In this document: in pieces, positions 41,471 to 62,827 of the stretch | Numbering within the stretch: position 1 is the first letter of the stretch | Layout of the letters: every line of letters begins with the position of its first letter | Assembly (NCBI RefSeq): GCF_023698535.1 | Contig: NZ_JALJCL010000006.1 | Location: 1 to 64,000 of the forward strand | Source of the DNA: Halorientalis regularis | GTDB taxonomy: Archaea > Halobacteriota > Halobacteria > Halobacteriales > Haloarculaceae | Direction: 5' to 3' | DNA: 64,000 nt | Program-made: the position numbers and the translations under genes | Notes under the pieces: generated by a model | Seen by the model: only the letters and a program-made list of their open reading frames with translations | Database searches by the model: none | Told to the model about the DNA's origin: nothing

Positions 41471-41492
41471 ATGGGTTGGGGCGGATTTGAAC
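41471..41492. repeat. partial tRNA-Val copy, distal att site
   Basis: 22 bp identical to 44010-44031 (acceptor and T-arm half of tRNA-Val). After one extra G the match resumes for CGCCGGCT, then ends. Confidence 0.85.
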
Positions 41493-41500
41493 GCGCCGGC

Positions 41501-41549
41501 TCAGCGCCTCACGAGGGCCAAAACAGCAGATTTGGCCGTTCGGCGCTGA
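41501..41549. repeat. nested inverted repeat next to the att site
   Basis: TCAGCGCC (41501-41508) pairs with GGCGCTGA (41542-41549), and inside it GGCCAAA (41516-41522) pairs with TTTGGCC (41531-41537) around an 8-nt loop. It begins 8 bp after the 22-bp att copy. It could be an integrase arm site, a folded RNA leader or a recombination-directing structure. Confidence 0.6.
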
Positions 41550-41621
41550 AAGCAAGTGGTGAACTTAGGTGTGTATAACACCGCCGTATCACGCAAGGCG
41601 GGGTCAGGTTCGGAGCAACCT

Positions 41622-42623: not shown

Positions 42624-42690
42624 ATAGGAATGCGTTGTATAAAACCATCATGCGAACCTGTTGACACGGGGAGGGGCCAGCAAAGATAGT

Positions 42691-43224
42691 TCACCCGGTC
42701 TGCCAAACATCAAACAGATACAGTGGTATCCAGATCATTACAGTAGTTGATCCAAGAATAGTCAACAAACCTGAGATCCTGAACCACCATACGAAATCAA
42801 CACCCAAAGGATTGATTGGGGTAAACAGTGGAACTAGACTAATTATGGCACATAATATCCCAAGAAACCAAATAAAGAACGCCACAATCAATGTTCCTGT
42901 GGAGATACCTAGTGAATCAATCCACTGTTCTAGTGCCAATTTAACTTCATAGAGCCGGCGATTCGGTCGCCTCTGGCCTTCACCTTCCCACCGATAATAG
43001 GATCGTTCTTCCTGTCCGATCCGATCTTCATTGTTTGATAGTTGAGAGAGTTGATTTGCTACTGTACCAACCTTGCCAGCACGACAATCATTCTTGACAG
43101 CTTCAAAGACCTCCTGAGTTTCGTGTTCTGTGTCAGGATTTCTATATAGATATTCAATGATGGCACGTTTGGTATCTTGATTGGGCTTGTTGTACTCCTC
43201 CAGTAGTTCCTCTTTCTGCTTCAT
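42691..43224 (-). CDS. winged-helix membrane protein of the integrative element
   Basis: A 177-residue protein. The N-terminal 75 residues (KRAIIEYLYRNPDTEHETQE, then GTVANQLSQLSNNEDRI) look like a winged helix-turn-helix. Two membrane helices follow (about 108-132 and 147-172). DNA-binding domains tethered to the membrane are frequent in haloarchaeal viruses and plasmids. It may regulate the element. Oriented opposite to the integrase and A+T-rich. Confidence 0.7.
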   Translation of the reverse strand: MKQKEELLEEYNKPNQDTKRAIIEYLYRNPDTEHETQEVFEAVKNDCRAGKVGTVANQLSQLSNNEDRIGQEERSYYRWEGEGQRRPNRRLYEVKLALEQWIDSLGISTGTLIVAFFIWFLGILCAIISLVPLFTPINPLGVDFVWWFRISGLLTILGSTTVMIWIPLYLFDVWQTG

Positions 43225-43398
43225 ACAAAACCACCGGACAGAAACGGGCCATGATTCAAATCATACCCTCGAAGAACGCCTGTGATCAACATCACAACCA
43301 TATATTCTTTGAACTATCTCGAACGCTTATATTATTACCGCCCGTTGTTGTGACTGGATCATGACGCTTGAATCTGAGACAACGGAGGTTGCTTGAAT

Positions 43399-43740
43399 AT
43401 GCCGGAGATCGAGCATGGGTATCGGCGGGGCGTTTCCGTAGTCGTTGAAGCAATAATCGTTGCTGTACTTATCGGAGAGGTTGTACCGAAACTCGTTGAG
43501 GCAGGTATCTTTCCAAAGGGCCTGTTCTCAATTGCAATTGTACTCTCAATTGCCGGAACAGTTATGACTATAGATAAATCCCGATACTGGTCTTTTGGAT
43601 ACTTAGCAGGATTCTGTATCGGGATTGCGATTGCACTGCCTCCCCTCATTCAGACTGGATTCCTTGGTCTGTTCGATCTATTGCTCTACGGAGGGACTGC
43701 CATAGCTACGATTTTCTTGCGGGTGAAGATACATATCTGA
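43399..43740 (+). CDS. small membrane protein of the integrative element
   Basis: A 113-residue protein with three or four hydrophobic segments (VVVEAIIVAVLIGEVV, LFSIAIVLSIAGTVM, YLAGFCIGIAIALPPLI, LLLYGGTAIATIFL). The ATG at 43399 is preceded two codons earlier by a TTG. There is no known family. Similar short polytopic proteins are common cargo of haloarchaeal plasmids and proviruses. Confidence 0.65.
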   Translation: MPEIEHGYRRGVSVVVEAIIVAVLIGEVVPKLVEAGIFPKGLFSIAIVLSIAGTVMTIDKSRYWSFGYLAGFCIGIAIALPPLIQTGFLGLFDLLLYGGTAIATIFLRVKIHI

Positions 43741-43880
43741 TTCAGCGGGTACAGATAGGATTCCGGTCAAAGAGTCCACATATGACGAGTTGTGGCTGAT
43801 TGTAATCCATCAAATCAATTTTAATTATCTCACGTCAGAATCTGTATAGGTATTGCCATCTACAAGCCGACTTCCTTCTG

Positions 43881-43958
43881 ATGGCCCACCGCCGTCCCGC
43901 GCTCCGAGACAAATTCGAGTGGTTATTTCTCTGGTTCACAGCGAGAAAGCCGGGGTAA
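43881..43958 (+). CDS. possible 25-residue micro-ORF
   Basis: ATG to TAA encodes MAHRRPALRDKFEWLFLWFT and five more residues, amphipathic and basic. Directly after it GGGGTAAATTAAAGTAACCCC can form a short stem. Coding is uncertain; it lies between the small membrane protein and tRNA-Val. Confidence 0.2.
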   Translation: MAHRRPALRDKFEWLFLWFTARKPG

Positions 43959-44010
43959 ATTAAAGTAACCCCTACGCTGTCTTGTGGTTAGAAAAAACGA
44001 AGTGGGCGTA

Positions 44011-44085
44011 TGGGTTGGGGCGGATTTGAACCGCCGGCTTTCTCCGTGTGAAGGAGATATCATAACCGGACTAGATCACCAACCC
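44011..44085 (-). tRNA. tRNA-Val (anticodon CAC)
   Basis: A complete cloverleaf: acceptor GGGTTGG/CCAACCC with discriminator A, D arm TGATCTAGTCCGGTTATGA, anticodon stem TCTCC/GGAGA with loop TTCACAC (CAC reads GTG, valine), and T arm CGGCGGTTCAAATCCGCCC. No intron or encoded CCA. Its 3' half is the attachment site of the adjacent integrative element and was regenerated by the insertion. Confidence 0.95.
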
Positions 44086-47272: not shown

Positions 47273-48341
47273 GAGGGTGTCATAGAACTCTTCTCACACC
47301 GTGATGATCGTGCTTCCCGGATTGTCTCCGCGTTCATAGTTGGTGATTGCGACGACGAGGCGAAGGCACAGCGCAAGAAACACTTGCGCTCGTGCGTGGA
47401 CGCGGCCTCAGGCGTGCGTTCGCCCGAGGCCGCAGTCCTTGACTGATTCGTTGGTTCGTTCGACTCCTGTCCGGCGGTTATACGTCTCGTCTAGCGTCGA
47501 TTGCTTCAGTTGAACGTCCTCGCTGTGTTCGGAGATACGGTCTTCGATCCTGTACTCAATATCTTTCGGATCGTCGGTGTTTCGCGCGTTGTACGGGGCG
47601 ACTGGCACGACCCCTGCGGCCAGCAGGTGGTCGTGCCAGTCAAGCGTGTCGTAGGCGCTGTCACCGACCATCCACATCGGCGTGGCGACGGCGAGCGCGT
47701 CACGCGTGACGCGCATCGCCGTCTCCTCTGGCGCTTGCTTACTCTCGGTGAACTCAGCTGCAATCGGGATCTTTTGCCCGGTCGAGACGATCGTACAGCC
47801 GTAGCCGTAGTAGTACTCGTCGTCGGTTGGATCGTAGCACTTCGAGGCGTCTTGATCGGCGGGCATCGCCCTCACGTCGGTTGAATCGATGCAATAGGTC
47901 AGGTCGAGCAGGCCGCGCTGGGCGGCCTGCTCGACGAGTCGGTCGAAGACCTCGTCAACGACGTGTTCGAGGTCGGTGAGAAAGCGATCGACCGCATCTC
48001 TGGACGGCGGTCGATCGAAACCACAGCTGAGCCAAACGACCGTGTTCCGAAGCTCCCGCTCAACCGGACGAATCCCGTAGATGTCGTGGTAGTAGCAATG
48101 GAGGAAGCCACGCATCAGCTCTGGTGGTTCGTGCTCTCGTGTTCGCCCCGTCTCCTCCGGGGCGAACACGTCGAACTCTTCGAGAAACTCGAAGGAGAGA
48201 TGCTCAAACAACGCTAGCGTCTCGGTCTCCGCGACATTGAAGAACGTCTCTACCGAAGGATCATCTTGCAGGGTCGCTGAGGCCATACCATCTCAGCGTT
48301 CACCCTGCTCTTTGGTGTGGTACTCGTTCTATGACACCCTC
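47273..48341 (-). mobile_element. insertion sequence, about 1069 bp, ISH11-like
   Basis: Perfect 16-bp terminal inverted repeats GAGGGTGTCATAGAAC bound the element at 47273-47288 and 48326-48341, and partial identity continues inward. One transposase gene fills it. The length and transposase recall ISH11-group elements (IS5 family) of haloarchaea, from memory. The 7 bp on each side (AGATATC, TTAGAGA) do not match, so no target duplication is visible. Confidence 0.8.
47294..48286 (-). pseudogene. IS transposase with in-frame stop
   Basis: A DDE transposase of 330 codons interrupted near its end by TGA at 47408-47410. Before the stop are DSTDVRAMPADQDASKCYDP (first Asp region), VGDSAYDT (second Asp) and NRRTGVERTNE (Glu region). 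After it, in the same frame, GRVHARAQVFLALCLRLVVA and a TNYERGD end continue. A CGA-to-TGA change explains it. The shortened product keeps the catalytic residues but loses the last 37, so this copy is probably inactive. Confidence 0.85.
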
Positions 48342-48468: not shown

Positions 48469-48897
48469 GTGGACGAAACCGCTATCAAAATCAACGGCGA
48501 GTGGTCTTGGTTGTATGCTGCAATAGACATCGATACGAAGTTGATTCTTGACGTGCAGCTGTTCGGGCGGCATGGCACTGATCCGGCGGCTGCGTTCCTG
48601 CTTGGTCGCCGCGAAAAACACGATCTCTCCGACGCAACGTTCCTTGTTAATCAGTTTGGAGATCGGACTGGCCTTACTCGATTAGGATTGAACGGTCGAG
48701 TTAATTATACCGACCGGTACCTCATCGAAAAGTGGTTCCACGGGCTCAAAATGCGCATCGACCGTTTCCATAATTCGTGGGTGGGCAGTCGGGTGAGCGC
48801 ACGCGAGTGGTTTGATCAACTTGTGCATTACTACAACCATCAGAGGCCGCATCAATCGCTCGACGGTGGAACGCCAGCCGACGAGGTGCTAAACTAG
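48469..48897 (+). pseudogene. IS6-type transposase remnant
   Basis: The last 140 or so codons of an IS6-family (ISH15/ISH29-like) transposase: VDETAIKINGEWSWLYAAID, IEKWFHGLKMRIDRFHNSWV and HYYNHQRPHQSLDGG. The N-terminal helix-turn-helix half is missing, and the frame enters from unrelated sequence at about 48450. The second catalytic position reads FLVNQFGDR where FLVD-FGY is usual, so Asp is Asn. It is dead and probably lost its 5' end in a rearrangement near the ISH11-like element. Confidence 0.8.
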
Positions 48898-49385: not shown

Positions 49386-51200
49386 CTAAAATGATGTCCC
49401 ACTGTTATGCGGATCGTGCTGAAACATTCGCCACTCTCCGGTCACATCACCTGCAGATAACGCGTACACGTTGTCATCGTAACTTCCGACGTAGACTTTG
49501 CTATCTACCACCGCTGGCGACGATGATAACTTAAATCCCGCCTGAGAGGTCCATTGTTCGGTGCCCTCCGCTACGTCTATTGCATAGATGGCGCCATCGC
49601 GGCTTCCGATGTAGACAGAGCCATCTACCACCGCTGGCGATGATTCCACTTCCCCATCCGTCTGAAAGGACCACTGTTCGGTGCCATCTGCAGCGTCCAG
49701 CGCATACACGTTGCCGTCGTCACTTCCGACGTAGACCGTGTCATTCATTACTGCTGGAGAAGACTGGACATATCCGTCTGTCGGGAACAACCACTGTTCA
49801 CTACCATCCGTTGCATCCAATGCATACACGTTGTTGTCCCAACTTCCGATGTAGACCATACCATCCACTACTGCTGGCGACGAGGATAATTTAATTCCCG
49901 TTTGAAAAGACCATTGTTCGGTCCCAGTCGTAGAATCTATTGCGTACAGGTTACCATCGTCATTTCCGATGTAAACAGTGTCATCTACCACCACTGGCGA
50001 CGACCCAACTCCACTATCGGTTCGAAACTGCCACTGTTGGCTACCCTCCGCCCTATCCAGCGCGTACACTCTCTGATCGTAACTTCCGACGTATAGAGTG
50101 CCATCTACCACGGCTGGAGATGAATCCACCGTGCCGCCCGTCTGGACCGACCACTGTTCGGTGCCATCCCTCGCGTCTAGTGCATATACGCTATCATCCC
50201 AACTCCCGATATAGACTGTATCATCAACCACTACTGGAGACGACTGGACATATCCGTCTGTCGGGAACGACCACTGTTCACTACCATCCGTTGCATCCAA
50301 TGCGTACACGTTGGCGTCCCAACTCCCAATATAAACCATACCGTTCACTACTGCTGGAGATGAGTTTACTGAATTGTCGGTCCGAAAAGACCACAAAGTC
50401 TCGCCAGCGGTAGTTTTAATACCAGTTTGAGAGTCAGATGGAACTGACCCAGAGTCAGATTGGGTAAACAGGTACCACCCTACAGTCCCCATAGCACCCA
50501 CACCCAACAGGCCAGTGCCAAGTGCTGCACGGCGTGTCAGGCCGCTTTCTGTGTCAGTTTTCTCGCCAATTTCTTGATCGGTCGCACTTTCATCAGCAGT
50601 AGTTTCAGGTGCGGAACTAGCAGAACCGCTATCTCCATCAGAGTCAGATGTATCGCTGGCGTCGGACTCTGCGTCGCTGGTATCGGTGTCTTCTGCAACG
50701 GCGGATGCGGATCCCCCAGGAGCAGTGAGCGGATCTATGGGTAGCACGCGCTTGATCGCCGTTTTGAAAGCGTACGCGGAGTCGTAGCGGTCGCCGGGGT
50801 CGGCCGCCAGTGCTGTCAAGACCACGTCGTCAACCGCATCGTCAACACTTGGATGATCGGTAGCGTCACTCAGCACGGAGGGATCACTCTGCCCAACTCT
50901 GGCGGGATCGCCGGGTGGTTGTCCAGTGAGCACGTAGTAGGTGATGGCACCAAGACTGTACACGTCAGCTTCTTCAGACGCCATTTCGGAGTCGTCAGTA
51001 AGTTCAGGCGCAGTAAACGGCGTACTCACCGCCTGGTCTGCCGCAACCCGACAGGCCCGTTCAAGTCCCCAGTCGTCGACGAGGGCTTGTACGCCGTCAT
51101 CGGTTTCGGTGGCCCAGACGGTCTCGGGACTGAGCGCACCATGGGTCGTGTTGTAAAGAGCGGCGTTGCGGAGTGCTTCGGCGATGACTTGAATTTCCAT
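49386..51200 (-). CDS. pseudokinase C-lobe, membrane helix and PQQ-type propeller
   Basis: A 604-residue protein. Residues 1-155 equal the C-lobe of a Ser/Thr kinase fold: NTTHGALSPETV replaces the catalytic loop (no HRD Asp), VDDWG the DFG, and DVYSLGAITYYVLTGQPP the helix after the APE-like FTAPE. The N-lobe with its ATP loop is absent. An acidic Ser/Asp/Thr linker follows, then LTRRAALGTGLLGVGAMGTV (about 221-246, membrane helix with a twin-Arg), then an eight- to nine-blade propeller of 40-residue repeats (SSPAVVDGTLYVGSYDQRVY-like). The kinase part should be inside and the propeller outside. The missing N-lobe and lack of a clear promoter suggest 5' truncation. Confidence 0.75.
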   Translation of the reverse strand: MEIQVIAEALRNAALYNTTHGALSPETVWATETDDGVQALVDDWGLERACRVAADQAVSTPFTAPELTDDSEMASEEADVYSLGAITYYVLTGQPPGDPARVGQSDPSVLSDATDHPSVDDAVDDVVLTALAADPGDRYDSAYAFKTAIKRVLPIDPLTAPGGSASAVAEDTDTSDAESDASDTSDSDGDSGSASSAPETTADESATDQEIGEKTDTESGLTRRAALGTGLLGVGAMGTVGWYLFTQSDSGSVPSDSQTGIKTTAGETLWSFRTDNSVNSSPAVVNGMVYIGSWDANVYALDATDGSEQWSFPTDGYVQSSPVVVDDTVYIGSWDDSVYALDARDGTEQWSVQTGGTVDSSPAVVDGTLYVGSYDQRVYALDRAEGSQQWQFRTDSGVGSSPVVVDDTVYIGNDDGNLYAIDSTTGTEQWSFQTGIKLSSSPAVVDGMVYIGSWDNNVYALDATDGSEQWLFPTDGYVQSSPAVMNDTVYVGSDDGNVYALDAADGTEQWSFQTDGEVESSPAVVDGSVYIGSRDGAIYAIDVAEGTEQWTSQAGFKLSSSPAVVDSKVYVGSYDDNVYALSAGDVTGEWRMFQHDPHNSGTSF

Positions 51201-51320
51201 GCCCACAGCAGCGACACGACCGCTGCGGCTGCAGGCTCCAACACAACCGAAAAGAAGCCAGTGGAACCGGATAATGACGATGAGACCGCCGCTACTAGCG
51301 CAGCTCAATCAGAGTCCAAA

Positions 51321-52208
51321 ATGTCGCCACAAGAGGGTGCCGTATCCGAAGAATCAGCGGAAATGACTAACAACGCGCCGACCCAGAACCCTACTGCGAC
51401 CACCCCCTCTCGTGATCTCCCGGACCAGGAACCAGGTACCTACTGGTCGGACAGCGTCCGTATGCGGGACGGACCGATCCGGTACCACGACGGGAAGCTG
51501 GTCGACGAGACCACGGTTCGCGAAATCCGAGTCGCGACGCTTGAGCCAGTACTTGACGATGAGCCAAAAGATGCGTTTCAACAGACAGCCCGAAAATGGA
51601 CATCAATCAGTCAGAATGCACCGATTGCAACGGTATTCGAGGCAGGCGATACGAATGCTCCCTACGTCGCCTTCGATGTCGGTGAGATCAGCCTCCAGAA
51701 TGCACTGCCCGACCTCTCGACGACCGATAGAGTCGAATTGCTCGCCGATGTCGCCGAGGCACTCCGCCTGGGACGACTTTACAGCCACCGACACGGATAT
51801 CTTTCACCAGATGTCGTCCACATCACAATGAGCGATGGCCCACCACAAGCGTCAGTCAGCGAGTGGGGTCTTCGGCGATCAGTTGAGGCAGCGCTCAACG
51901 AAGGAACTCCGATCACGCCCTATAGTGCCCCCGAGCAGGTGCGTGATAACCAACTCGGCGAATCAGTCGATATTTATCAACTCGGAGCACTGGGGTGTTA
52001 CGTATTCACCGGTCAGCCACCGGTCGCCGATGAAGCCCCTGCGCTCGAAAGGGCCATACTTGAGGGGAACGTGCGGTCGGTTGCCGACGATGATCGTGTC
52101 CCCGAGGATGTAGCGCGGATCATCGACACGGCACTTTCAACAGAACCCGATCTGCGACAGAACTCTGTAAGAGCGGTCGAAGAGGCGTTCAAACGAGCAC
52201 ATGACTGA
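51321..52208 (+). CDS. kinase-like (pseudokinase) protein
   Basis: A 295-residue protein with a whole kinase-like fold after 60 disordered residues. The N-lobe is VREIRVATLEPVLDDEPKDA with no clear ATP lysine. The C-lobe has RHGYLSPDVVHI in place of HRDLKPxN and SEWG in place of DFG, then YSAPEQ and DIYQLGALGCYVFTGQPP. Both key Asp residues are therefore missing, stronger evidence for a pseudokinase than in its neighbours. Coding-like sequence (Thr/Asp/Glu-rich linker) continues upstream in frame to about 51203 without an ATG, so the true gene may have been longer. Head to head with the preceding gene, tail to tail with the next. Confidence 0.72.
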   Translation: MSPQEGAVSEESAEMTNNAPTQNPTATTPSRDLPDQEPGTYWSDSVRMRDGPIRYHDGKLVDETTVREIRVATLEPVLDDEPKDAFQQTARKWTSISQNAPIATVFEAGDTNAPYVAFDVGEISLQNALPDLSTTDRVELLADVAEALRLGRLYSHRHGYLSPDVVHITMSDGPPQASVSEWGLRRSVEAALNEGTPITPYSAPEQVRDNQLGESVDIYQLGALGCYVFTGQPPVADEAPALERAILEGNVRSVADDDRVPEDVARIIDTALSTEPDLRQNSVRAVEEAFKRAHD

Positions 52209-52258: not shown

Positions 52259-55200
52259 TTAGTCAAATATCGCAACGAGTTCTCGACGGAGTTCGTACGG
52301 TGAATCGAACCGCTTGTCTGGGTCCGTAGCCATCGCTGTTGCGACCAGTTCGTCAACAGCAGTTGGAAGTGATGAATCCACATTAGTCGGCCGTTCGAAG
52401 TCACGGTCTGCGATTGCGGATCGGAGATCGGCACCGTAGGCGAACGGTGGTTCATCGGTTAAGACACGATAGATTATTGCACCAAGCCGGTAGATATCGG
52501 TTGCAGTCCCGGCGGTCTCACCAGTGAGTTGCTCGGGGGCGGTATACGGTGTAACGGGTGGGTCCTCGATCCTTTTTTCGACAGTACGCTGCAACCCCCA
52601 GTCGGCCAGCGTTGCAATCAAACTGCCCTGCTCGTCTTCTGCAAGGAACACTGTCGTGGGTGTGATACCCCCATGGGCGAGGTTGTACATACTTCCGGTA
52701 CGGACCGCCTCAGCGAGATCAACGAGAATGTCGATCCGTTTGGGTCGTTCTAAATTAGTCAGAGCTTCGTCTAACCGACCGATACCAGGATCAAAGGCGA
52801 TCCACGGACGAGGGTCACTACCGTGGTCATAAACGGTTGCGACGTGGGTATTCTTGCTGATCCCCTGCCACTCCCGAGCAATTTTTTCGAAATCCGAGAC
52901 TGACTCCTCCTCGGAGTGTTCGGGGGCGAGCGCGTACAGATGGGTATGCTCCTCACTGATCTGATCAACCAAGGTACCTCGGTAGACGTGGACTGGACCT
53001 GTGTCATCGACAACCGAGGCCGATTCGATGGAATCACAGTCGCGAGCGAACCGAGTCGCAACCGAATCCGGTTCGGCGTTCTCCAAATCCGAACTGGAGG
53101 TAGCGGTCACATCATCGGTCGTTTCCGTAGTCGACTCGGCAGCCGACGGATCCGTTTCGGGGTCGCTCGAACGGGTATGTAATTGCGGTTCGTCGCCCAG
53201 TTTTCCGGTGACCACGGTCAACGAGCCGTCAGCTGTTCGGCAAAACACACTGTTACCCACGACTATAGGTCGCGATAGGACACCGTCGAGTCCGTGTGTG
53301 AACTTGTAGGAACCATCCGCAGCATTGAGTGCAACCAGATCACTCTCTGTTCCCACGTAAACTGTGTCGCCGACGACGACTGGCCCTGTCGTCGCATCGA
53401 TACTCGTCCGCCAGTTCTCGGTCCCAGTCCTAATGTCGAGTGCTCGGACATCCGAGTCAGTGGTTTGATAGATGTGACCGTGGGCGAGGGCAACAGCTGT
53501 CGGCTGGCCGCCCTCGTCCTTAGTCCACTGTTCCTTTCCTGTCTCGGGATCGTGAGCAGCTACTACCGAACGCGTCGTAATAATCAGTCTGTCACCGATC
53601 GCTAAGGAAGGGTTATGACCCCGTGTCTCAATTTGCCAGTGCTGGGTACCCGTCTCTGCGTCCAACGCGGTGATAGACGTGCCAGCCGCAATATAAACCG
53701 CCCCGTCAGCGACCGCGAGTGCTGTCACCTGTCCCTCACAATCGGTTTGCCACTTCTGACTCCCTCCAGCCAGGTGGTGACCCTGTACGCCCGTGTCTGT
53801 GCCGACGAAAACAGCATCGTCGGCGACGACGGTGGTGAGACCCTCGACCGATCGGGTCCAGCGTTCCTCACCATCTCGTTGTCGGTAGGCCTGAACGCCT
53901 TGGTCGGTGCCGACGACGACCAGTTGGTCGCTGACAACCGGTGGCGTCGGATTCTCAGCGTCGAGAGCGGTCATCAACTCGATATCACCCGATTCGAGTG
54001 CGACGCCGAGCAGAGCTCCCTCGTTGGTTGTGACGAACGCGTGGTCACCGTCGATTGCTGGCGAGGTGTCGACGGTGCTGCCCTCTGGCTGGATCCGGTG
54101 GGCAGTCTCGGGATCGGTACGTGGTTCCCGAGCGGTGGGAACGGCCGCTGTTTTCGTGGAGTCGTGGCCGGGGCAGGGCCAGTTGTCGACGCCGTGGTCG
54201 GTAGTGATCTGCGTGGTGGTCTTGGCGGACCCACGGCTATAGCGCCACGCACCCAACCCGGCGAGTGTCATGCCCGTGAGACCAGCCCCGCCACCTATCA
54301 GTAGATTTCTGTCGACGACGAACCCGTAGAGCGACTTGAGATGGCCCCCCTCTGTCAGCGCGTATACGTTGCCGTCTCTACTCCCGACGTAGACAGTCCC
54401 GTCGACCACCGCCGGCGACGAGGCCACCCGGCTGCCAGTCTGGAAGCGCCACTGTTCGGTCCCATCCGCCGCCGACACCGCGTACACGTTGCTGTCCCAA
54501 CTCCCGACGTAGACAGTCCCGTCAACCACCGCCGGCGACGAGTACACTGCGGCGCCAGTCTGGAAGCGCCACTGTTCGGTGCCATCCGCCGCCGACACCG
54601 CGTACACGTTGCCGTCTCCACTCCCGACGTAGACAGTCCCGTCGACCACTGCCGGCGACGGGGGCACCTGGTTGTCAGTCTGGAAGCGCCACTGTTCGGT
54701 CCCATCCGCCGCCGACACCGCGTACACGTTGCCGTCTCCACTCCCGACGTAGACAGTCCCGTCGACCACTGCCGGCGACGAGGACACCCCGTATCTAGTC
54801 TGGAAGCGCCACTGTTCGCTCCCATCCGCCGCCGACACCGCGTACACGTTGCCGTCTCCACTCCCGACGTAGACAGTCCCATCGACCACCGCCGGGCGCG
54901 AGGACACCCTGTAGTCCGTCTGGAAGCGCCACTGTTCGGTGCCATCCGCCGCCGACACCGCGTACACGTTGCCGTCCCAACTCCCGACGTAGACAGTCCC
55001 ATCGACCACCGCCGGCGGAGATCGCACCAGGTTGTCAGTCTGGAAGTGCCACTGTTCGGTCCCATCTGAAGCCGACACTGCGTACACGTTTGTGTCGTCA
55101 CTTCCGACGTAGACAGTCCCGTCGACCACTGCCGGCGACGAGGCCACCTGGCCGTCAGTCTGGAAGCGCCACTGTTCGCTCCCATCCGAAGCCGACAATG

Positions 55201-56848
55201 CATACACGCTTGTGTCGTCACTCCCGACGTAGACAGTCCCATCGACCACCGCCGGCGACGAGTACACCCCGGCGCCAGTCTGGAAGCGCCATTGCCCACC
55301 GATATTCTGTGTGGGTCCAGTCGTATTTGGCGCGTGACCGGTGTTGGCGGTGTCGTACTGATACTGTGGCCAGTCGGAGACGGACGACTGTTCGCTCTGA
55401 GCGGCCTCGACGCTCACGTTCGTTTCGGTCGTGGCCATCGCTCCGTCGGCGGTGGATACGCGCAACCGAACTGTGTATTCGCCGGCCTCCTCGAAGGTAT
55501 GAGTGACCTGCTGGCCTGTGGTGGTGAAATCGGAGTTGGCCCCGAACGCCCACTCGTAGGTTGCCGAACCTGGGTCGACGTTGGGCAACGTCGTGTTCAA
55601 AGCGTCGAAGGTAACCGCCGTGTTCGTCGTCACGGATTCGGAGTCGTATGACACCTGAGGTCTAATAACCGCCGACAACGCGTACACGTTGCCGTCCCTA
55701 CTCCCGACGTAGACAGTCCCGTCGACCACCGCCGGCGACGAGTACACCCCGGCGCCAGTCTGAAAGCGCCACTGTTCGTTCCCATCCGAAGCCGACACCG
55801 CGTACACGTTTGCGTCGTCACTCCCGACGTAGACAGTCCCATCGACCATCGCCGGCGACGAGTACACCCCGGCGCCAGTCTGAAAGCGCCACTGTTCGGT
55901 GCCATCCGAAGCCGACAACGCGTACATAATGACGTCGTCACTTCCGACGTAGACAGTCCCGTCGACCACCGCCGGCGACGAGTACACCCCGTCGTCAGTC
56001 TGGAAGCGCCACTGTTCGTTCCCATCCGAAGCCGACACCGCGTACACGTTGCCGTTGGTACTCCCGACGTAGACAGTCCCGTCGACCACTGCCGGCGACG
56101 AGGGCACCCGGCCGCCAGTCCTGAAGCTCCACTGTTCGTTCCCATCCGAAGCTGACACCGCGTACACGTTGCCGTCTCCACTCCCGACGTAGACAGTCCC
56201 GTCGACCACTGCCGGCGACGAGGTTACCGCTCTGTTAGTCTGGAAGCGCCACTGTTCGCTCCCATCTGAAGCCGACACTGCGTACACGTTTATATCGTTA
56301 CTCCCGACGTAGACAGTCCCGTCGACCACCGCCGGCGGCGAGTACACTGCGGCGCCAGTCTGGAAGCGCCACTGTTCGGTGCCATCCGCCGCCGACACCG
56401 CGTACACGTTGCCGTCCCAACTCCCGACGTAGACAGTCCCGTCGACCACCGCCGGCGACGAGCCCACCCATCCGCCAGTCTGGAAGCGCCACTGTTCGCT
56501 CCCATCTGAAGCCGACACCGCGTACACGTTGCCGTCCCAACTCCCGACGTAGACAGTCCCGTCGACCACCGCCGGCGACGAGTCCACCTGGCCGGGGGTC
56601 CGGAAGCGCCACTGTTCACCAATCGGCGCATTCGGCCCGGTTTCATCGGGATTGTGTCCCGAGTTACGGGCATCCACACAGTACATCGGATGGCCGCTGG
56701 TATCATCGACTTGCGCCTGGGCTCCGTCCACAGTCTCCTGACTACGCCCAGTGTTTGTACCAACACCCAACTGTGCGCTAGCCCCCGACCCCGCTAGGAT
56801 CGATGCTGCCTGTAACAATCGCCGTCGTGATAGTGTTCCATCAGTCAT
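52259..56848 (-). CDS. Tat-exported double propeller, membrane helix, propeller and pseudokinase
   Basis: A 1529-residue protein. The Tat signal is LSRRRLLQAASILAGSGASA. Then come propeller 1 (about 80-395, eight 40-residue PQQ-type repeats), a PKD-like domain (about 403-485, YEWAFG and HTFEEAGEYTVRLRV), propeller 2 (about 517-835, eight repeats), a membrane helix (LLIGGGAGLTGMTLAGLGAW, about 847-868), a diverged propeller 3 (about 890-1215), an acidic linker and a kinase-like domain (about 1263-1529). In that domain LAHGGITPTTVF replaces the HRD loop (catalytic Asp missing), LADWG keeps the metal Asp, and TPYTAPEQ and DIYRLGAIIYRVLTDEPP follow. Propellers 1-2 are outside, propeller 3 and the kinase fold inside. 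Possible TATA (AATATTTG) about 20 nt upstream; 96 nt below the membrane-protein gene. Confidence 0.82.
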   Translation of the reverse strand: MTDGTLSRRRLLQAASILAGSGASAQLGVGTNTGRSQETVDGAQAQVDDTSGHPMYCVDARNSGHNPDETGPNAPIGEQWRFRTPGQVDSSPAVVDGTVYVGSWDGNVYAVSASDGSEQWRFQTGGWVGSSPAVVDGTVYVGSWDGNVYAVSAADGTEQWRFQTGAAVYSPPAVVDGTVYVGSNDINVYAVSASDGSEQWRFQTNRAVTSSPAVVDGTVYVGSGDGNVYAVSASDGNEQWSFRTGGRVPSSPAVVDGTVYVGSTNGNVYAVSASDGNEQWRFQTDDGVYSSPAVVDGTVYVGSDDVIMYALSASDGTEQWRFQTGAGVYSSPAMVDGTVYVGSDDANVYAVSASDGNEQWRFQTGAGVYSSPAVVDGTVYVGSRDGNVYALSAVIRPQVSYDSESVTTNTAVTFDALNTTLPNVDPGSATYEWAFGANSDFTTTGQQVTHTFEEAGEYTVRLRVSTADGAMATTETNVSVEAAQSEQSSVSDWPQYQYDTANTGHAPNTTGPTQNIGGQWRFQTGAGVYSSPAVVDGTVYVGSDDTSVYALSASDGSEQWRFQTDGQVASSPAVVDGTVYVGSDDTNVYAVSASDGTEQWHFQTDNLVRSPPAVVDGTVYVGSWDGNVYAVSAADGTEQWRFQTDYRVSSRPAVVDGTVYVGSGDGNVYAVSAADGSEQWRFQTRYGVSSSPAVVDGTVYVGSGDGNVYAVSAADGTEQWRFQTDNQVPPSPAVVDGTVYVGSGDGNVYAVSAADGTEQWRFQTGAAVYSSPAVVDGTVYVGSWDSNVYAVSAADGTEQWRFQTGSRVASSPAVVDGTVYVGSRDGNVYALTEGGHLKSLYGFVVDRNLLIGGGAGLTGMTLAGLGAWRYSRGSAKTTTQITTDHGVDNWPCPGHDSTKTAAVPTAREPRTDPETAHRIQPEGSTVDTSPAIDGDHAFVTTNEGALLGVALESGDIELMTALDAENPTPPVVSDQLVVVGTDQGVQAYRQRDGEERWTRSVEGLTTVVADDAVFVGTDTGVQGHHLAGGSQKWQTDCEGQVTALAVADGAVYIAAGTSITALDAETGTQHWQIETRGHNPSLAIGDRLIITTRSVVAAHDPETGKEQWTKDEGGQPTAVALAHGHIYQTTDSDVRALDIRTGTENWRTSIDATTGPVVVGDTVYVGTESDLVALNAADGSYKFTHGLDGVLSRPIVVGNSVFCRTADGSLTVVTGKLGDEPQLHTRSSDPETDPSAAESTTETTDDVTATSSSDLENAEPDSVATRFARDCDSIESASVVDDTGPVHVYRGTLVDQISEEHTHLYALAPEHSEEESVSDFEKIAREWQGISKNTHVATVYDHGSDPRPWIAFDPGIGRLDEALTNLERPKRIDILVDLAEAVRTGSMYNLAHGGITPTTVFLAEDEQGSLIATLADWGLQRTVEKRIEDPPVTPYTAPEQLTGETAGTATDIYRLGAIIYRVLTDEPPFAYGADLRSAIADRDFERPTNVDSSLPTAVDELVATAMATDPDKRFDSPYELRRELVAIFD
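54361..55320 (-). repeat. eight tandem 120-bp repeats (propeller 2)
   Basis: Eight units of exactly 120 bp encode the blades of propeller 2. Long stretches such as CTCCCGACGTAGACAGTCCC are the same in all or nearly all units, including third codon positions, which implies recent expansion or gene conversion. Confidence 0.9.
55681..56620 (-). repeat. eight tandem 120-bp repeats (propeller 1)
   Basis: Eight further units of 120 bp, nearly identical to those at 54361-55320, encode propeller 1. The two arrays are separated by 360 bp holding the PKD-like domain and a linker. Confidence 0.9.
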
Positions 56849-56944
56849 ACGAAAGGCCCCATTCAAATATTGAGTCCGGGTTCACGGAACCACTCGGTTG
56901 CGTCGGCACCCGGGAACAACGTACCAAGGTATACCCTTCAACAA

Positions 56945-58234
56945 TCATTCTCCAGTCGGCAAGCTTACAATTTCAGCCTCTGTACTTGTGTTCTCATCAG
57001 TCTCCGTGGAATTTGTGCCCCTCGTGTTCGATGAGGAGTCATTTGTCGGCGTCACTGTGGATTGTGTACCGTTAGATTGGCTACCACTAGACTGGACTTC
57101 TGTCGCGTTCAGTGTGCCATTCCACACCATCTTCCGAGCGCCAGAGCTGTTTGTAACGTTGATCCGGTAGTCACCAGACTCTAAATCCGTCCATGATTTC
57201 GTAGCTGGAGAACTGTCGACTGTGTGGTTCTCTCCGATTTGGATCCCTGAGTTATTGAACAGACGGACAGTATGTTTGACATCGCTTGAGCCGTTCCAGC
57301 GGATAGAGATTGTGCTGTTCGCGTCGTAGGCAGTGACGCTATACGCTGAGACATCGAACTCACTCTGATTACCGGAGTCCGAACCGCACAAATCACCAAC
57401 CACAGGCAAATCAACGCTCACGCCGAGGAAGCACGCACCATAGAGTGCACCGCCGACGAGCAGAGCGAGCACTGCGATTCCGAACGCCGAAATGAGACCG
57501 ATACTGAGTAGTTTGTCTTTGCGGGTGAGGTCGTCGCCAGTCGAATCACCGCCCAGCGGTGACTGGTATCGTGAGTCGTTACCCCCCTGTGCACCACCGG
57601 CCAAGCCCCCTTGTTCTGAGCGCATGTTACTCCGGCGCTCCCGCGACAGTGCCGCTTCCGTATCACCGAGTGGAACCAGACCGGTATGATCTCCGGTTTC
57701 GATGACGATGTCGTAGCTCGATAGCTCGGAGCTCTCGGCATTGTCGGCGATGGCGACTTTGTTCGCCCTGCTGTTCCGCAATACATCCAGCAGCAGTGCC
57801 AGTGCCTCCCTGTAGTTCGAGACGCCAAATTGGGGCCGCTCACCCCGACTGATCAGTTTCGGGATCAAATCACGTGTCTTTCGATCGCCGGGGGGCGTCA
57901 ACCGGGACGCCTCGGGAATCAGATCGAAGACCGTCGAGTCCTCAGTTGAGGACTCGAGGATCATATCGTATTCACGAGTGACCTTCTCCTCAACGTCCGA
58001 TTTCAGGTTCTCGATCTCGCCAACGCTACTGGCCTCAAACTCGGCGTAGAACTGATCCAGGCGAGCGCCTTCCGACTCACGAGCTCTGAAGAAACAGTAC
58101 GCCCGGACGGAGTCGATACTCTCTATCGCGAGACGGACACCGTCGAAGAAGAAATTGGCGATCCGCTCGTTTTTGGGTGCTCCAGGATCGTCTAGAGGTT
58201 GACCCTGAGAGTCGTAGATGGTGAGGTCAATCAT
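56945..58234 (-). CDS. single-pass membrane protein with glycosylation-rich outer domain
   Basis: A 429-residue protein. Residues 1-200 are a soluble alpha/beta domain (MIDLTIYDSQGQPLDDPGAP, helices near 25-60, and a patterned FGVSNYREALALLLDVLRNS stretch) that I do not recognise. A Gly/Ser/Arg linker follows, then one membrane helix (243-270) and an outer part with an Ig-like strand pattern (SVTAYDANSTISIRWNGSSD) and at least ten Asn-X-Ser/Thr sites, ending in a Thr/Ser/Asn-rich stalk. The start is 1 nt after the GTPase stop, so it belongs to the same operon. It may link surface state to the GTPase. Confidence 0.75.
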   Translation of the reverse strand: MIDLTIYDSQGQPLDDPGAPKNERIANFFFDGVRLAIESIDSVRAYCFFRARESEGARLDQFYAEFEASSVGEIENLKSDVEEKVTREYDMILESSTEDSTVFDLIPEASRLTPPGDRKTRDLIPKLISRGERPQFGVSNYREALALLLDVLRNSRANKVAIADNAESSELSSYDIVIETGDHTGLVPLGDTEAALSRERRSNMRSEQGGLAGGAQGGNDSRYQSPLGGDSTGDDLTRKDKLLSIGLISAFGIAVLALLVGGALYGACFLGVSVDLPVVGDLCGSDSGNQSEFDVSAYSVTAYDANSTISIRWNGSSDVKHTVRLFNNSGIQIGENHTVDSSPATKSWTDLESGDYRINVTNSSGARKMVWNGTLNATEVQSSGSQSNGTQSTVTPTNDSSSNTRGTNSTETDENTSTEAEIVSLPTGE

Positions 58235-58235
58235 A

Positions 58236-59687
58236 TCAGGATCGCCTCCCGAACAGATCCAACAATTCGTCGAACCCGACTGTCATCACGGAGTTGGTGT
58301 CGTCTCTGATCGGAACGCGGTCACCGTTCTCGTTTACTTTCGTCTGGTAATATACAGGGTAAATTTCGGTCCCAGCAGTCTCCTGAATGAGACTCTCAAC
58401 CTGCTGACTGCCGCGGAGCCGCTGGTTGATGTACTCCCTGAACTCTTCTTGATATCGATGCGCTTCGAGACCACGTTCCTCACGGAATTCCTCAGCCATA
58501 ACGTCGGCTTTCGTCGCTACCAGAATCACACCGGTATTGTTTGCCTGGCGAAGAATATCGAAGTACTCAGTAATCTCAAGCGGTTCGTCGTTCATGAAGC
58601 GTTCTAGATCGAGTAGCAAGACCAGCGTATCAGCCTCTTCAACACCATCGACAAGTCGCTCAAGCGTCGCGTCAACCGAATCATCTGGAAGCGTTCCTGT
58701 GATTGCATCCGGCAATCGATTCAGATACTCACCTGCGTAGTCGATACTTTGCAGCCCAATGTTCGTCGGGAAAACACGTCCATGAACGTACTGGAACGAG
58801 AGGACATTCACCTCACCGCGGCCGGTAGCCTCAATGATCCACTCCGATTCTGGCCTGTCAAGTTCCTGAATCATGTCGACTAAGTCGTTACTTGGGTTCA
58901 GTGGTGTGTTGCTCGACGAATTAGACGTCTGTTCCAGCGCTTCTAGATAGGCCCCGATCAAAAAGAGACTCTTTCCCGACGCTCGTGGACCGAGAATGAA
59001 GAAATCGTGTTCAGCATCGTAAGTTACGAACTGTGCGAGAACGAATATGAACAGACCGCTAACGAGCATGTTTTTGAAGATTCCGGCCGTCTCGATGCCG
59101 ATCCCCTCTGAGGATGCTGTTGCAGTCTGTATACCATCTTGCGTGACGGTGAAGAGCTCCGGATATTGAATATGGTACTCGAAAAAGGCCGCAACCACGA
59201 TCAACACGAGAATACAGAAGATGCCAAGCGAGGCACGCCGAAACTCAAGTGCATCCGCCGTCTGGACTTGGAACAGTTTGCGTCCTCCGCCGATACCCAG
59301 GCCGATTATTAGCCCACCAATAAACCAGGGTGCTTCTGAAATGAAATTGATTTCAACGAGAAAGAGATTAAGCGAAAGTAATCCTACAAGCGAGATGAGC
59401 ATACCCAACCACAGAAGAGTTGCCTGGACACGCTTTTTAGGATCTAAAGTCATGAGTACGAGAAACCCTAAGAACAGCCCCAAAAACGCCATATTGAGTG
59501 CCGGTCGTGACATGCCAATCAAATAATGTAGCCGAACTGCCGAGCGAGCTAGATGTGCATTTTCCCATGCTTGGCCAATAAAAGTGGCAAGGGAATACGC
59601 CAGCACAATTATAACTGCGAAATAGAGTAGTAATTTCAGCTTCTCCCGATTCTCCTGAACGAAGCCAGCAATGTTATTCCCACTCAT
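58236..59687 (-). CDS. polytopic membrane GTPase
   Basis: A 483-residue protein. Six or so membrane helices occupy residues 18-220. The cytoplasmic C-terminal domain has Walker A GPRASGKS (233-240), a switch-II DYAG (316-319) that fits DxxG, and TKAD (392-395) as the guanine-specificity motif, so it is a Ras-like or dynamin-related P-loop GTPase. The strand before it, VLLLDLERFM, fits the core fold. It sits between the tubulin-like gene (11-nt gap) and the single-pass membrane gene (1-nt gap). I infer a membrane GTPase switch acting with the tubulin-like protein. Confidence 0.82.
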   Translation of the reverse strand: MSGNNIAGFVQENREKLKLLLYFAVIIVLAYSLATFIGQAWENAHLARSAVRLHYLIGMSRPALNMAFLGLFLGFLVLMTLDPKKRVQATLLWLGMLISLVGLLSLNLFLVEINFISEAPWFIGGLIIGLGIGGGRKLFQVQTADALEFRRASLGIFCILVLIVVAAFFEYHIQYPELFTVTQDGIQTATASSEGIGIETAGIFKNMLVSGLFIFVLAQFVTYDAEHDFFILGPRASGKSLFLIGAYLEALEQTSNSSSNTPLNPSNDLVDMIQELDRPESEWIIEATGRGEVNVLSFQYVHGRVFPTNIGLQSIDYAGEYLNRLPDAITGTLPDDSVDATLERLVDGVEEADTLVLLLDLERFMNDEPLEITEYFDILRQANNTGVILVATKADVMAEEFREERGLEAHRYQEEFREYINQRLRGSQQVESLIQETAGTEIYPVYYQTKVNENGDRVPIRDDTNSVMTVGFDELLDLFGRRS

Positions 59688-59698
59688 AGTTTCCCCAC

Positions 59699-62600
59699 TT
59701 ACTCTGAAGTTTGAACCATCTCAATATATTCATCGAGTAATTCCTGCGTGATTTCAGGTTCATCTCGCAGGAAGAACGCGACATCATCTTCATCTTCCAT
59801 GTTCATTAGATTCTTCCGCCGAACGTAGTAGCCATCACTCAGGCCGTAGCTGTGATGAACGAGGATGTCATCGCCGATATCTGCTTGTCGCTGTTGATAC
59901 CCGCTGAAATAGCCGTCCGCCTGAACGGCTTTCTTTATATTGTCAAGAAAGACACCGGATATGAACACACAGATACCGATATCCCACGGGCCGCCTACGT
60001 CTGATGCCCAACTTGTGTACGGGCTACTGGCACGGTTACCACCGCTACCGATGTCGAACGCGCCGGTAAAGATGTCCTCGACATCGATTGTTCCCGAGTC
60101 CAGCTGCGAAATCGCGCGACTCAGTACCGATACCCGGACTTTCATGTCGCTGTATCGGGATCGGCCCCGGCTCAGCTTCCGTCGCTTGAGTGATGTGTAT
60201 TCTTCGTTGCGTGCGTTTTTCGCTAACTCCTCCAGGTTCGCCCGAACACGCTGTGTCTCCTCTCGGCTGTTCAGGAGGTCGCTCTGCGCGAGGTCTTCAC
60301 GTCCAGTGGCACGAAAGACATCTTCCGGTTGCATATTTTTGATGTAGACGTGCCGATCGGACTCCGTGGACACGCTCCGGCTGGGTTCGGCTGAGTAGTC
60401 GTCCTGTTGGGCTCTGAACGACGTGCTCTGTTCTTCGTAGACCTCGCGCTTGTTGTTCAACCGCTGGAACAGATCGATCGTCGGATCGTACACTTCGATC
60501 CGGTCTTCGACATCGGTCAGTTCGGCCTGCAGTTTGTCGCGACGCTCTTCGATATCGTCTGTCTCGCCAACTTCAAGTCTGAATACACGACGAACAATAT
60601 CCCGTAGTTGGTCTTTGTCCGGATCTTCCGTAAGACTCGTTTCGAGTTCTCGGAGCAGGTCCTCGGGAGGGTCCTCAGCCTGCTCGCGCAACTGGTCCAA
60701 AACCCCGTCTCTAAGTGTGCGTTCCTCCCGTTCGACATCCTCGAGCACGTTCGACTCGTTGTAGGTCAATTCTGCGGTGAACTGGCCACCTGGTGGACCC
60801 ACGGAGAAGATACCACGATCATCCAGCCGGTTGTTCTGCATCCGGTAATCCTTGTGGGCCTGTTCTTTCTCTTCTTCAGTGGAACTCTGCCACGGCGCGA
60901 TGCTCTCGATTGTCCCTTCCTCCTGGTTCATATGGAAGAAAGCGACGCGACCCTGCTTGAGTTCCGAGAGCGAGCCCTCGATCGCCCGCCGATCCTCCTG
61001 AAAGTCGATTCCAACCTCGTTCAGGTCGTTTTGGACTCGATCCAACGCGTCTCGGACTCCGGATTCGGCGATTTGCTCCACTTCGTCTTCGGTATCGGCG
61101 TTGACGATGTTCGAGAGGAACTCATCAAGACGCGAACGGAGCGTGTTGAGGTCGGTCTCCAAGTCCATCCGAGCGATCTTTTGGAGGCGTGCAACGTCGT
61201 TTTCGACGTTGCGTTCCCAGTTGTTGACCAGACGCTTGACCTCCTCCGACTGCGCATCGCGTGCGTCTTCGAGTTCCTGAATCGCCTCTTCAAGCTCCGT
61301 CTCGAGTTGTTCCCGACGGTCTTCTAGGTCTTCGAGTTCCGATTCCAGTCGCTGGAGGCGGACACCGGGATTCGCGTTTGCACTGCCTGTCCCAATAAGG
61401 AATTCAAGTGCGTCGCGAATCTTCTTGTCGTCGACGGTTTTGATCCGACTAAGGATTTCCTTCCGCATCGCGATCAGTGTGAGATCCTTTTCTATAATCT
61501 CGGCCAGATGTTCATCGATGTTGTCGACGAACTGTCCCGTATCGCGACTGGTCGCATCGATAGCGCGAACCGACGCGGAGATCGTATCGACCTGCTGTGC
61601 GACGTCGCTGCTCTCCTCTTTTGCGTCCTCGATGATGTCCTCGAATATCGCAATGGACTCGTAATTCAACTCATTGAAGAGGTCGAACTCAAGCAACGTC
61701 GTCACCCGTTCGATCCGCTCGTTCAGGTCGGTTCGATCGAGATCACGGAGGCCGGTCTCCCCGTCTCCGAAGTGTTTGTCTAGGTGACGGTCGATCTCAG
61801 TGTAGATCTCCTCTTCGGCCTGTAGCGCTTCCTGTTTTTCGTCGAGAATGCCACGGAATGTCTGTCTGGCTTCGTTGATTGCCTCGACGTTGTATCGCAG
61901 GATCTGTGGGATCCCGATAGTAAAGGGCGCGTACTTCGGCGCATCGGCGAACGGATCTTCCAGTCCCTCCGTGTTGTAGTACGACGCCAGCATGTAGACG
62001 ACCGCCTCGTCGAACTCCTCGAGGAACCGGTCAGTCTGGATGCGGTTGCCCGTTTTGCCGTCGAATTCGGTCGGGTCGATCGGCAGCAGAATACGGTCTT
62101 TGAACACCTGTTCGTCGGTAAGCGAGAGATACTCCAGTTCAGAAAGTGCCGCGAACGCGTTCGTGTTCTCTTTGAGCCCTTCGAGGTGATTTGGCAGGAC
62201 CCCGAACAGCGTAATCTCAGCGGTCCGGTGGCGCTCTTTGAGGTGCTGAGCGAGGTCGGCAAGGATTCCCGAACCGGTCCCCCCGCCGAGGCCAGCCAGG
62301 ACTGCGACTTTCCCTTTTTCGGGTAGATCGATGTACTTCGAGATCTGATCGTCTTCGGCGTAGGCTTTATAATAGATTGCTTTCCCGAGCCCCCGTTTTC
62401 GGACGACACCCTTCGCAAAGTCGAGGTTTTCGTTGATGTGTTGGGGCTTGATCCACCAGTTCTCAGGGTCCATTCCGTTCCCTTCCGCTATCCGCGGAAC
62501 GGCCTCTTCACCGAGTAAATCAATGCTCCCGTCCAGCCTGATATCTTCGGTGACGAGTTTGTATTTGACCTCTATCGACCCGGGTCGCCCCTGATCTGTG

Positions 62601-62827
62601 TCCCGGACCTCTTCCTCAACCTCTGCGATACGTTGTCGGATGTCCGCGATCCGCTGTTTGTCGTTGTTCTGTTCGCCCTCAGCAGTATCCAGAATGGTAA
62701 CGGTCAACGACGGCGGGTCTGGTCTAGGTTCCAGAATCCCACGCAACACCCACTCGGATTCGAGAAGTTCCATCGCGATGGCCTTCCCTGCACCGCCAAC
62801 AGCAAAAATCCGGTCTGGAAACTTCAT
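59699..62827 (-). CDS. tubulin/FtsZ-superfamily protein with long coiled coil
   Basis: A 1042-residue protein. The N-terminus FAVGGAGKAIAMEL (8-21) corresponds to the first nucleotide loop of FtsZ, and AVLAGLGGGTGSGILADLAQ (175-194) contains GGGTGSG, the tubulin signature that holds GTP phosphates. Similar large tubulin-like proteins (FtsZ-like, Pfam Tubulin_2-type) are known in archaea and bacteria beside membrane proteins. After the GTPase part (about 1-400) lie long helices, including a Glu/Leu/Arg coiled coil (RLESELEDLEDRREQLETEL), and a C-terminal alpha/beta region. It is much longer than FtsZ or CetZ. A TATA box (CTTAATG) is about 30 nt upstream. First gene of the operon. Confidence 0.85.
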   Translation of the reverse strand: MKFPDRIFAVGGAGKAIAMELLESEWVLRGILEPRPDPPSLTVTILDTAEGEQNNDKQRIADIRQRIAEVEEEVRDTDQGRPGSIEVKYKLVTEDIRLDGSIDLLGEEAVPRIAEGNGMDPENWWIKPQHINENLDFAKGVVRKRGLGKAIYYKAYAEDDQISKYIDLPEKGKVAVLAGLGGGTGSGILADLAQHLKERHRTAEITLFGVLPNHLEGLKENTNAFAALSELEYLSLTDEQVFKDRILLPIDPTEFDGKTGNRIQTDRFLEEFDEAVVYMLASYYNTEGLEDPFADAPKYAPFTIGIPQILRYNVEAINEARQTFRGILDEKQEALQAEEEIYTEIDRHLDKHFGDGETGLRDLDRTDLNERIERVTTLLEFDLFNELNYESIAIFEDIIEDAKEESSDVAQQVDTISASVRAIDATSRDTGQFVDNIDEHLAEIIEKDLTLIAMRKEILSRIKTVDDKKIRDALEFLIGTGSANANPGVRLQRLESELEDLEDRREQLETELEEAIQELEDARDAQSEEVKRLVNNWERNVENDVARLQKIARMDLETDLNTLRSRLDEFLSNIVNADTEDEVEQIAESGVRDALDRVQNDLNEVGIDFQEDRRAIEGSLSELKQGRVAFFHMNQEEGTIESIAPWQSSTEEEKEQAHKDYRMQNNRLDDRGIFSVGPPGGQFTAELTYNESNVLEDVEREERTLRDGVLDQLREQAEDPPEDLLRELETSLTEDPDKDQLRDIVRRVFRLEVGETDDIEERRDKLQAELTDVEDRIEVYDPTIDLFQRLNNKREVYEEQSTSFRAQQDDYSAEPSRSVSTESDRHVYIKNMQPEDVFRATGREDLAQSDLLNSREETQRVRANLEELAKNARNEEYTSLKRRKLSRGRSRYSDMKVRVSVLSRAISQLDSGTIDVEDIFTGAFDIGSGGNRASSPYTSWASDVGGPWDIGICVFISGVFLDNIKKAVQADGYFSGYQQRQADIGDDILVHHSYGLSDGYYVRRKNLMNMEDEDDVAFFLRDEPEITQELLDEYIEMVQTSE

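Follow-up and report, generated by a model that had tools for sequence, protein, structure and literature searches.

A conserved haloarchaeal trio of a tubulin-like protein, a membrane GTPase and a single-pass surface protein, with interchangeable receptor-type neighbors

The first 64,000 nucleotides of contig NZ_JALJCL010000006.1 of Halorientalis regularis (assembly GCF_023698535.1), the whole of which is called the window here, carry four consecutive minus-strand genes, named P1 to P4 in order of transcription. P1, P2, and P3, encoding an FtsZl1/Tubulin_2 tubulin-like protein, a polytopic membrane GTPase, and a single-pass membrane protein, constitute a core whose association is conserved in other genomes. 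P4, a propeller and pseudokinase gene, lies outside that core and represents an enriched, interchangeable accessory layer of receptor-type genes. We judge the chances to be about even that the P1-P2-P3 core forms a tubulin-like assembly at the membrane that is gated by receptors and switched by GTP.

P1 (59699..62827, 1042 amino acids) joins an N-terminal GTP-binding fold to a helical, coiled-coil middle and a conserved C-terminal domain. P2 (58236..59687, 483 amino acids) has about six transmembrane (TM) helices and a C-terminal GTPase domain, and P3 (56945..58234, 429 amino acids) consists of a cytosolic domain (residues 1 to 212), a TM helix, and an FNIII/Ig-like ectodomain. P4 (52259..56866) has a Tat-type start followed by PQQ propellers and a PKD domain, a TM-like stretch, an inner propeller, and a C-terminal pseudokinase. 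Its open reading frame (ORF) comprises 1535 amino acids when counted from a TTG at 56866; the ATG at 56848 is the likelier start. The intergenic gaps are 11 nt between P1 and P2, 1 nt between P2 and P3, and 96 nt (ATG) or 78 nt (TTG) between P3 and P4. An earlier note on this DNA had listed the four minus-strand ORFs with gaps of 11, 1, and 96 nt, which agrees with our coordinates provided that P4 begins at the ATG. Its sketch of the proteins also held: a GGGTGSG loop and coiled coil in P1, six helices and GTPase motifs in P2, one helix and a glycosylatable outer domain in P3, and a Tat-exported propeller/pseudokinase in P4. Its claim of a four-gene operon stands for the association of P1, P2, and P3 but not for P4 as a core member.

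Conservation and spread of the core

About 20 kb was read around each of 42 haloarchaeal loci, namely, the window and 41 further places. Relatives of P2 adjoin P1 in all 42, mostly with an overlap of a few bases or less than 65 nt away, and P3 is next in order in 32 of the 42 by direct search, clade-B loci holding a recognizable version of it. P4 was considered as a core gene and rejected, a kinase-like gene not being found at 20 of the 33 clade-A loci. Pairwise distances among P1, P2, and P3 correlate with r values of 0.945 to 0.986, and none of 999 permutations reached as high; such agreement is as expected for a jointly inherited cassette, and shared genome ancestry contributes to it too.

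P1 relatives occur in 46 of 392 Halobacteria genomes and 23 of 86 genera, and in none of five other genomes of the same genus. The genome from which the window comes holds a second full P1-P2-P3 core (locus L006, contig C19), whose P1 is 86% identical; contig C19 is 14.8 kb long with a guanine-plus-cytosine (GC) content of 50.7% and encodes a CAP-domain protein downstream of that core copy. The three genes recur in unchanged order on a Methanohalobium plasmid, and this copy falls inside the haloarchaeal clade in the tree (SH-aLRT 99, on a long branch), a nesting that suggests transfer. Methanogen copies form a separate clade, with P1 and P2 flanked by a 2-TM protein ahead of P1 and a 1-TM protein after P2. 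P2 is homologous between haloarchaea and methanogens (hhalign, 99.6%, E 1.8e-23), and the inner domain of P3 probably is as well (75.8%, E 2.3e-5, with the alignment starting at residue 1). A shorter Tubulin_2 subfamily of about 900 amino acids is frequent in one family of the phylum (f16; L171-L200, L201-L203); its neighbors have 1 to 3 TM helices, and no P2 relative was found in the three loci read.

Three proteins of the core

P1 exceeds the Pfam cut-offs for both Tubulin_2 (PF13809; 39 bits, cut-off 27) and Tubulin (35.5 bits, cut-off 33). It retains a GGxGK loop as well as the GGGTGSG GTP-binding loop (T4; residues 181 to 187, 62267..62287), in which G181, G182, G183, G185, and G187, five of the seven positions, are invariant in 42 homologues. 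An AlphaFold model built from these homologues (mean pLDDT 86.7, pTM 0.64) was compared with the PDB using Foldseek, and the top 50 matches all belong to the tubulin superfamily, with CetZ2 first (E 1.1e-5) and gamma-tubulin, OdinTubulin, BtubA, and FtsZ among the structures matched. The alignments cover about 320 to 360 columns at modest target TM-scores of 0.28 to 0.49, so the predicted tubulin-like fold is secure for the GTP-binding half, and the remainder of P1 falls outside that assignment. After the GTP domain, model helices 487 to 553 and 757 to 813 form an extended coiled coil, and the strongly conserved C-terminal part (890 to 1040) mixes helices and strands. The order of those strands and helices had raised the idea of a split tubulin C-terminal domain at 890 to 1010, which profile comparison did not support (0.05%). 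We propose that an EFDxA motif sits in the putative H7, the model helix at 262 to 284 that follows a strand at 244 to 249.

This protein belongs with the FtsZl1 family that Makarova and Koonin described in 2010 (PMC2875224) from the Halorhabdus utahensis locus Huta_2050-2056, which encodes a 1051-amino-acid tubulin-like protein with a coiled coil, a membrane-associated GTPase, and three kinases. P1 shares with FtsZl1 (PF13809) the GGGTG(S/T)G N-terminal domain, the coiled coil, the operon with a P-loop GTPase, and the kinases nearby. The FtsZl1 C-terminal domain was described as mostly helical, and that of P1 is modeled as mixed helix and strand. The vWA and OmpA partners stressed in 2010, of which vWA was frequent but not universal, are absent from the window operon; vWA lies beside one clade-B copy (L069/L121) and at another Tubulin_2 locus (L211). 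FtsZl1 was reported to be patchily distributed and usually to accompany an ordinary FtsZ (PMC2875224), and the genome studied here likewise holds FtsZ/CetZ-type genes besides P1. With CetZ, FtsZ, and OdinTubulin, P1 shares the N-terminal GTP-binding fold with GGGTGSG; it differs from them in exceeding 1000 amino acids, in its long helical middle, and in lacking a conserved T7 motif, and profile comparison found no FtsZ-type C-terminal domain in it.

P2, like P3, has no confident Pfam match. Its Walker A motif GPRASGKS (58968..58991), the G3/Walker B motif DYAGE with a glutamate after DxxG (58728..58742), and an ATKAD motif belong to a set (Walker A, DxxGE, TKxD) conserved throughout clade A with few exceptions. 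Judging from the approximately six hydrophobic helices, the GTPase domain would face the inside of the cell. Clade-B loci often have a second, divergent GTPase copy, and in several of them a copy near P1 has a degenerate P-loop (L073-L077), which suggests that the paralogues are an active/inactive pair. An assignment of P2 to the DO-GTPases was not adopted: the glutamate after DxxG is reported for that family (PMC7159879), and besides this motif the support is limited to sub-threshold matches, with P2 scoring 14.6 bits against a DO-GTPase cut-off of 27, DO-GTPase2 matched below threshold by 12 of 35 P2 members, and no above-cut-off match to the family in 116 genomes of the class.

The model of P3 comprises a very confident inner domain (residues 1 to 212), a helix at 244 to 269 (57428..57505) that corresponds to the single TM segment (residues ~242 to 269), and a beta-sandwich (residues 295 to 378, 57101..57352) that Foldseek matches to fibronectin-type and other Ig-like domains. 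The inner domain has no Pfam match, though it is conserved, and no PDB match for it was obtained, the FNIII ectodomain having taken up the match list. N-X-S/T sequons for N-glycosylation number 13 on the outer side and 1 on the inner side; across P3 relatives, the densities are 3.3 versus 0.59 per 100 amino acids, with 281 observed on the outer side against 103 expected on shuffling, and 52 against 49 on the inner side. This enrichment places the C-terminal part outside. Identity with GAP1 was considered and rejected (0.1% against archaeal GAP1 by profile; no PF20013 match in the genome).

Receptor-type genes and genomic setting

Genes for propeller, pseudokinase, or MIT/TPR-like plus HHH proteins lie near 20 of the 33 clade-A loci and in none of 40 control windows of 20 kb from the same genomes (Fisher p 1.3e-9). 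The inner module carried on a propeller and TM helix may be a pseudokinase or MIT-like, the latter label resting on a sub-threshold Pfam score (26.5, cut-off 30). Kinase-like modules occur at 13 loci and MIT-like ones at 7, and the two never share a locus (hypergeometric chance ~0.02, a value that is too strong given that the loci are related). The outer part varies as well: four loci (L052, L058, L059, L062) encode a pseudokinase, a TM helix, and an ectodomain homologous to that of P3; the C19 locus combines a pseudokinase and TM helix with a periplasmic-binding-like domain; and L038, whose P1 is 60% identical, has a pseudokinase followed by several TM helices and a kinase-like gene on each side of P1-P2-P3.

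P4 itself starts with the twin-arginine motif SRRRLLQ, and its pseudokinase domain (52283..52951) would lie inside the cell, given that start and the weak TM-like stretch near 855. By alignment the HRD aspartate, the catalytic asparagine, and the beta-3 lysine are missing (HGGITPTTV in the HRD loop), and only the DFG aspartate is kept (DWG), contrary to an active Ser/Thr kinase. Most related kinase-like domains also lack catalytic residues, and the HRD aspartate is kept in only one readable domain, that of the C19 copy (HLDLKPDN); the kinases of FtsZl1 loci were termed PKs in 2010, whereas those read here are mostly pseudokinases. Like AfsK/PknB-type receptor kinases, P4 pairs a kinase-like domain with a PQQ-type propeller (462 bits against NCBIfam AfsK, below the cut-off of 1300; nearest structures PknB), and it differs in its N-terminal Tat-exported propeller, its second propeller inside, and its lost catalytic residues.

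Two kinase-like genes in the window extend the list given in the earlier note: one adjoins the operon (50853..52208, plus strand, true start probably downstream of 50853), and the other encodes a kinase-like C-lobe, a TM helix, and a PQQ propeller (49386..51308, minus strand), its 5' part (the N-lobe) apparently missing. A divergent P4 paralogue of 1144 amino acids (Tat start, propeller, TM helix, propeller, pseudokinase) begins on the plus strand at 63042, fills the window to 64000, and continues to contig position 66476. Around and after the window end, kinase-like genes on this contig (C42) lie at 63042-66476, 66577-67620, 72002-73657, and 74122-77430, three of them with propellers (L007/L008). 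Seven kinase-like genes thus surround the operon over 28 kb (C42:50.8-77.4 kb), and of the 11 kinase-like matches in the genome, 8 are next to one or the other of its cores.

At 21 of 24 loci the core has a lower GC content than control windows from its own genome, and within the window the GC content is 55.7% at 48 to 64 kb versus 66.4% at 1 to 42 kb. Two transposase-like ORFs (47408-48286, minus strand; 48469-48897, plus strand) stand at the left boundary of the low-GC stretch that includes the operon. P1 relatives are present on four plasmid records; a phage origin was considered and dropped, since no P1 relative was matched among 50,697 phage records. PADLOC, run on 125 neighbor proteins with no control set, gave only scattered single matches to defense families, which do not suggest a defense island around the core.

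Several other elements were seen in passing. In the window, at least 21 nt of the 3' end of a tRNA-Val gene (44011-44085) are repeated at 41472, which delimits a small low-GC integrated element (41472-44085) with a tyrosine-recombinase-like gene (41556-42623, plus strand) just inside it. A tRNA-bounded element carrying the operon was also sought, and the only pair found (41472/44011) encloses this different, 2.6-kb element. On plasmid p117 (L121 1-3101, L069 13117-16204), vWA and Hsp70 genes lie upstream of a clade-B P1 with an ISH3-family transposase between them, an arrangement that recalls bacterial tubulin/Hsp70 GTPase systems. A further archaeal locus (L170 429-11478, genome G552) encodes a GAP1-N2 protein, a pair of P-loop proteins, of which one has DTAGE where P2 has DYAGE, an Hsp70-like protein, and a probable GrpE, and resembles a full GAP1-N2/Hsp70 system without a tubulin.

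A proposed membrane-linked switch and its alternatives

In a receptor-gated assembly, P1, a GTP-binding member of the tubulin superfamily, would be located in the cytosol and bear a long helical arm. P2 would act as a GTPase switch embedded in the membrane, and P3 would serve as an anchor there, its inner domain conserved and its outer beta-sandwich variable. P4-like receptors, in which a single TM helix joins an external sensor such as a propeller to an inner pseudokinase or MIT/TPR-like module, would report the state of the surroundings to the complex inside, probably via binding and not phosphorylation. A ligand or a state of the envelope would alter the receptor and P3, the GTP state of P2 would then change, and P1 would assemble or be released at a membrane patch; the most likely output would be local membrane or envelope reorganization. 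The parts, the predicted fold of P1, the three-gene core, its co-inheritance, the receptor enrichment, and the module swapping are in hand, and from them we infer physical contact between the proteins, the sequence in which they act, the formation of filaments, and the nature of both signal and output. The earlier note had tied its proposal to a tubulin fold in P1 and to neighbors conserved in other genomes, both of which were found, and the link that it drew between propeller/pseudokinase genes and the module is above chance; the signal-controlled cytoskeleton that it envisaged stays a reading. We would put forward only tentatively, as somewhat more doubtful than credible, that interchangeable single-pass receptors, with propeller, beta-sandwich, or binding-protein ectodomains and pseudokinase or MIT/TPR-like modules inside, act allosterically on the P1/P2/P3 trio as an outside-in tubulin switch in archaea. 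If true, this would be a modular transmembrane signaling system with cytoskeletal assembly as its output.

Several observations weigh against a receptor-gated assembly. No canonical T7 acidic motif (NxDxxD-like) is conserved after the presumed H7 in P1 homologues, so FtsZ-like polymerization-coupled hydrolysis cannot be assumed, and profile comparison gave 0.05% for an FtsZ-type C-terminal (activation) domain; together these indicate that polymerization of P1 may be non-FtsZ-like or lacking. The topology of P4 is uncertain, its TM-like stretch (~855 to 873) having a weak hydropathy of 1.4. The p value for the receptor genes is too strong, since the loci are related, although about 10 separate lineages contribute a receptor, and none was found within the 20-kb windows near 13 of the 33 clade-A loci. 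The likelihoods given here for this reading and its rivals refer to readings that overlap in part.

A possible, though rather unlikely, alternative is membrane remodeling or vesicle biogenesis, in which P1 filaments would bend or tubulate the membrane, P2 would act as the GTP switch, the surface proteins would pick the site, and receptors would serve regulation only. FtsZl1 was itself linked to membrane remodeling (PMC2875224) and is found alongside membrane proteins, kinases, and a GTPase; in the core, P2 and P3 are both membrane proteins, and P1 has the tubulin fold. The patchy spread noted above, however, ill suits a basic cell function, T7 is not conserved, and a referee of the 2010 paper considered that the data could hardly settle the matter.

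An NTP-dependent antivirus conflict system akin to GAP1-N2/DO-GTPase systems, with P3 or receptors sensing invasion, P2 as the switch, and P1 as effector or scaffold, seems unlikely. Tubulins, in some cases with coiled coils, are present in about half of GAP1-N2 systems, and a GTPase that begins with four TM helices also occurs in such systems (Kaur et al. 2020, PMC7159879). The likeness extends to a TM-bearing GTPase with DxxGE, a coiled-coil tubulin, an FNIII component, kinase variants, and the membrane setting, and the sub-threshold DO-GTPase2 matches, the clade-B GTPase pairs with a degenerate P-loop in several, the vWA and Hsp70 genes near one plasmid locus, and the patchy, low-GC, duplicated, and plasmid-borne character of the core point the same way. 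Unlike those systems, the module has its FNIII domain as the ectodomain of P3 itself, shows no GAP1 (the P3 comparison noted above), and has no zinc ribbon seen in P2. Of 197 genomes of the phylum, just 1, which is not that of the window, has a GAP1-N2 match above the cut-off, and P2 does not significantly match the two P-loop proteins of the archaeal GAP1-N2 system (20% and 0.7%). The defense-family matches are scattered, and no toxic effector was recognizable.

Quite unlikely, in our estimate, is an envelope or surface-assembly platform, in which the role of P3 and P4 would be to assemble S-layer or glycoprotein structures or to keep watch over them, with P1 as no more than a cytosolic scaffold. 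The outer domains vary (FNIII, CarboxypepD_reg, PEGA, CARDB), sequons are enriched, and an S-layer-domain protein is encoded near the Methanohalobium copy, but such a platform would leave two conserved nucleotide-switch proteins and the inner pseudokinase/MIT-like modules unexplained. A TubZ-kind partition system for plasmids or other elements, suggested by the tubulin superfamily and the four plasmid-borne copies, is largely refuted by context and very improbable, given that both partners are membrane proteins with no conserved DNA-binding adaptor beside P1, that several copies sit on contigs of 3 to 4 Mb, and that phage records gave no match.

The FtsZl1 family and its GTPase and kinase neighbors were known (PMC2875224). 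That paper did not place the T6-H7 elements or name P3, although its families A1/A2 may include P3. A search that did not reach most subscription journals found no experimental papers on FtsZl1 in the 16 years since its naming. To our knowledge, the additions are a core of three genes that includes P3, an enriched and swappable layer of receptors, the pseudokinase state of most kinase-like domains, the pairing of GTPases in clade B, and the link to methanogens; the combination described in the earlier note is not new, FtsZl1, a membrane GTPase, and kinases having been reported together in 2010. With a fixed three-part core, a probable third subunit, and swappable receptors, a vague membrane-remodeling idea becomes a defined parts list open to reconstruction or deletion in haloarchaea. 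If the receptors gate tubulin-like assembly, archaea would possess a link from signaling to cytoskeleton like those seen chiefly in eukaryotes.

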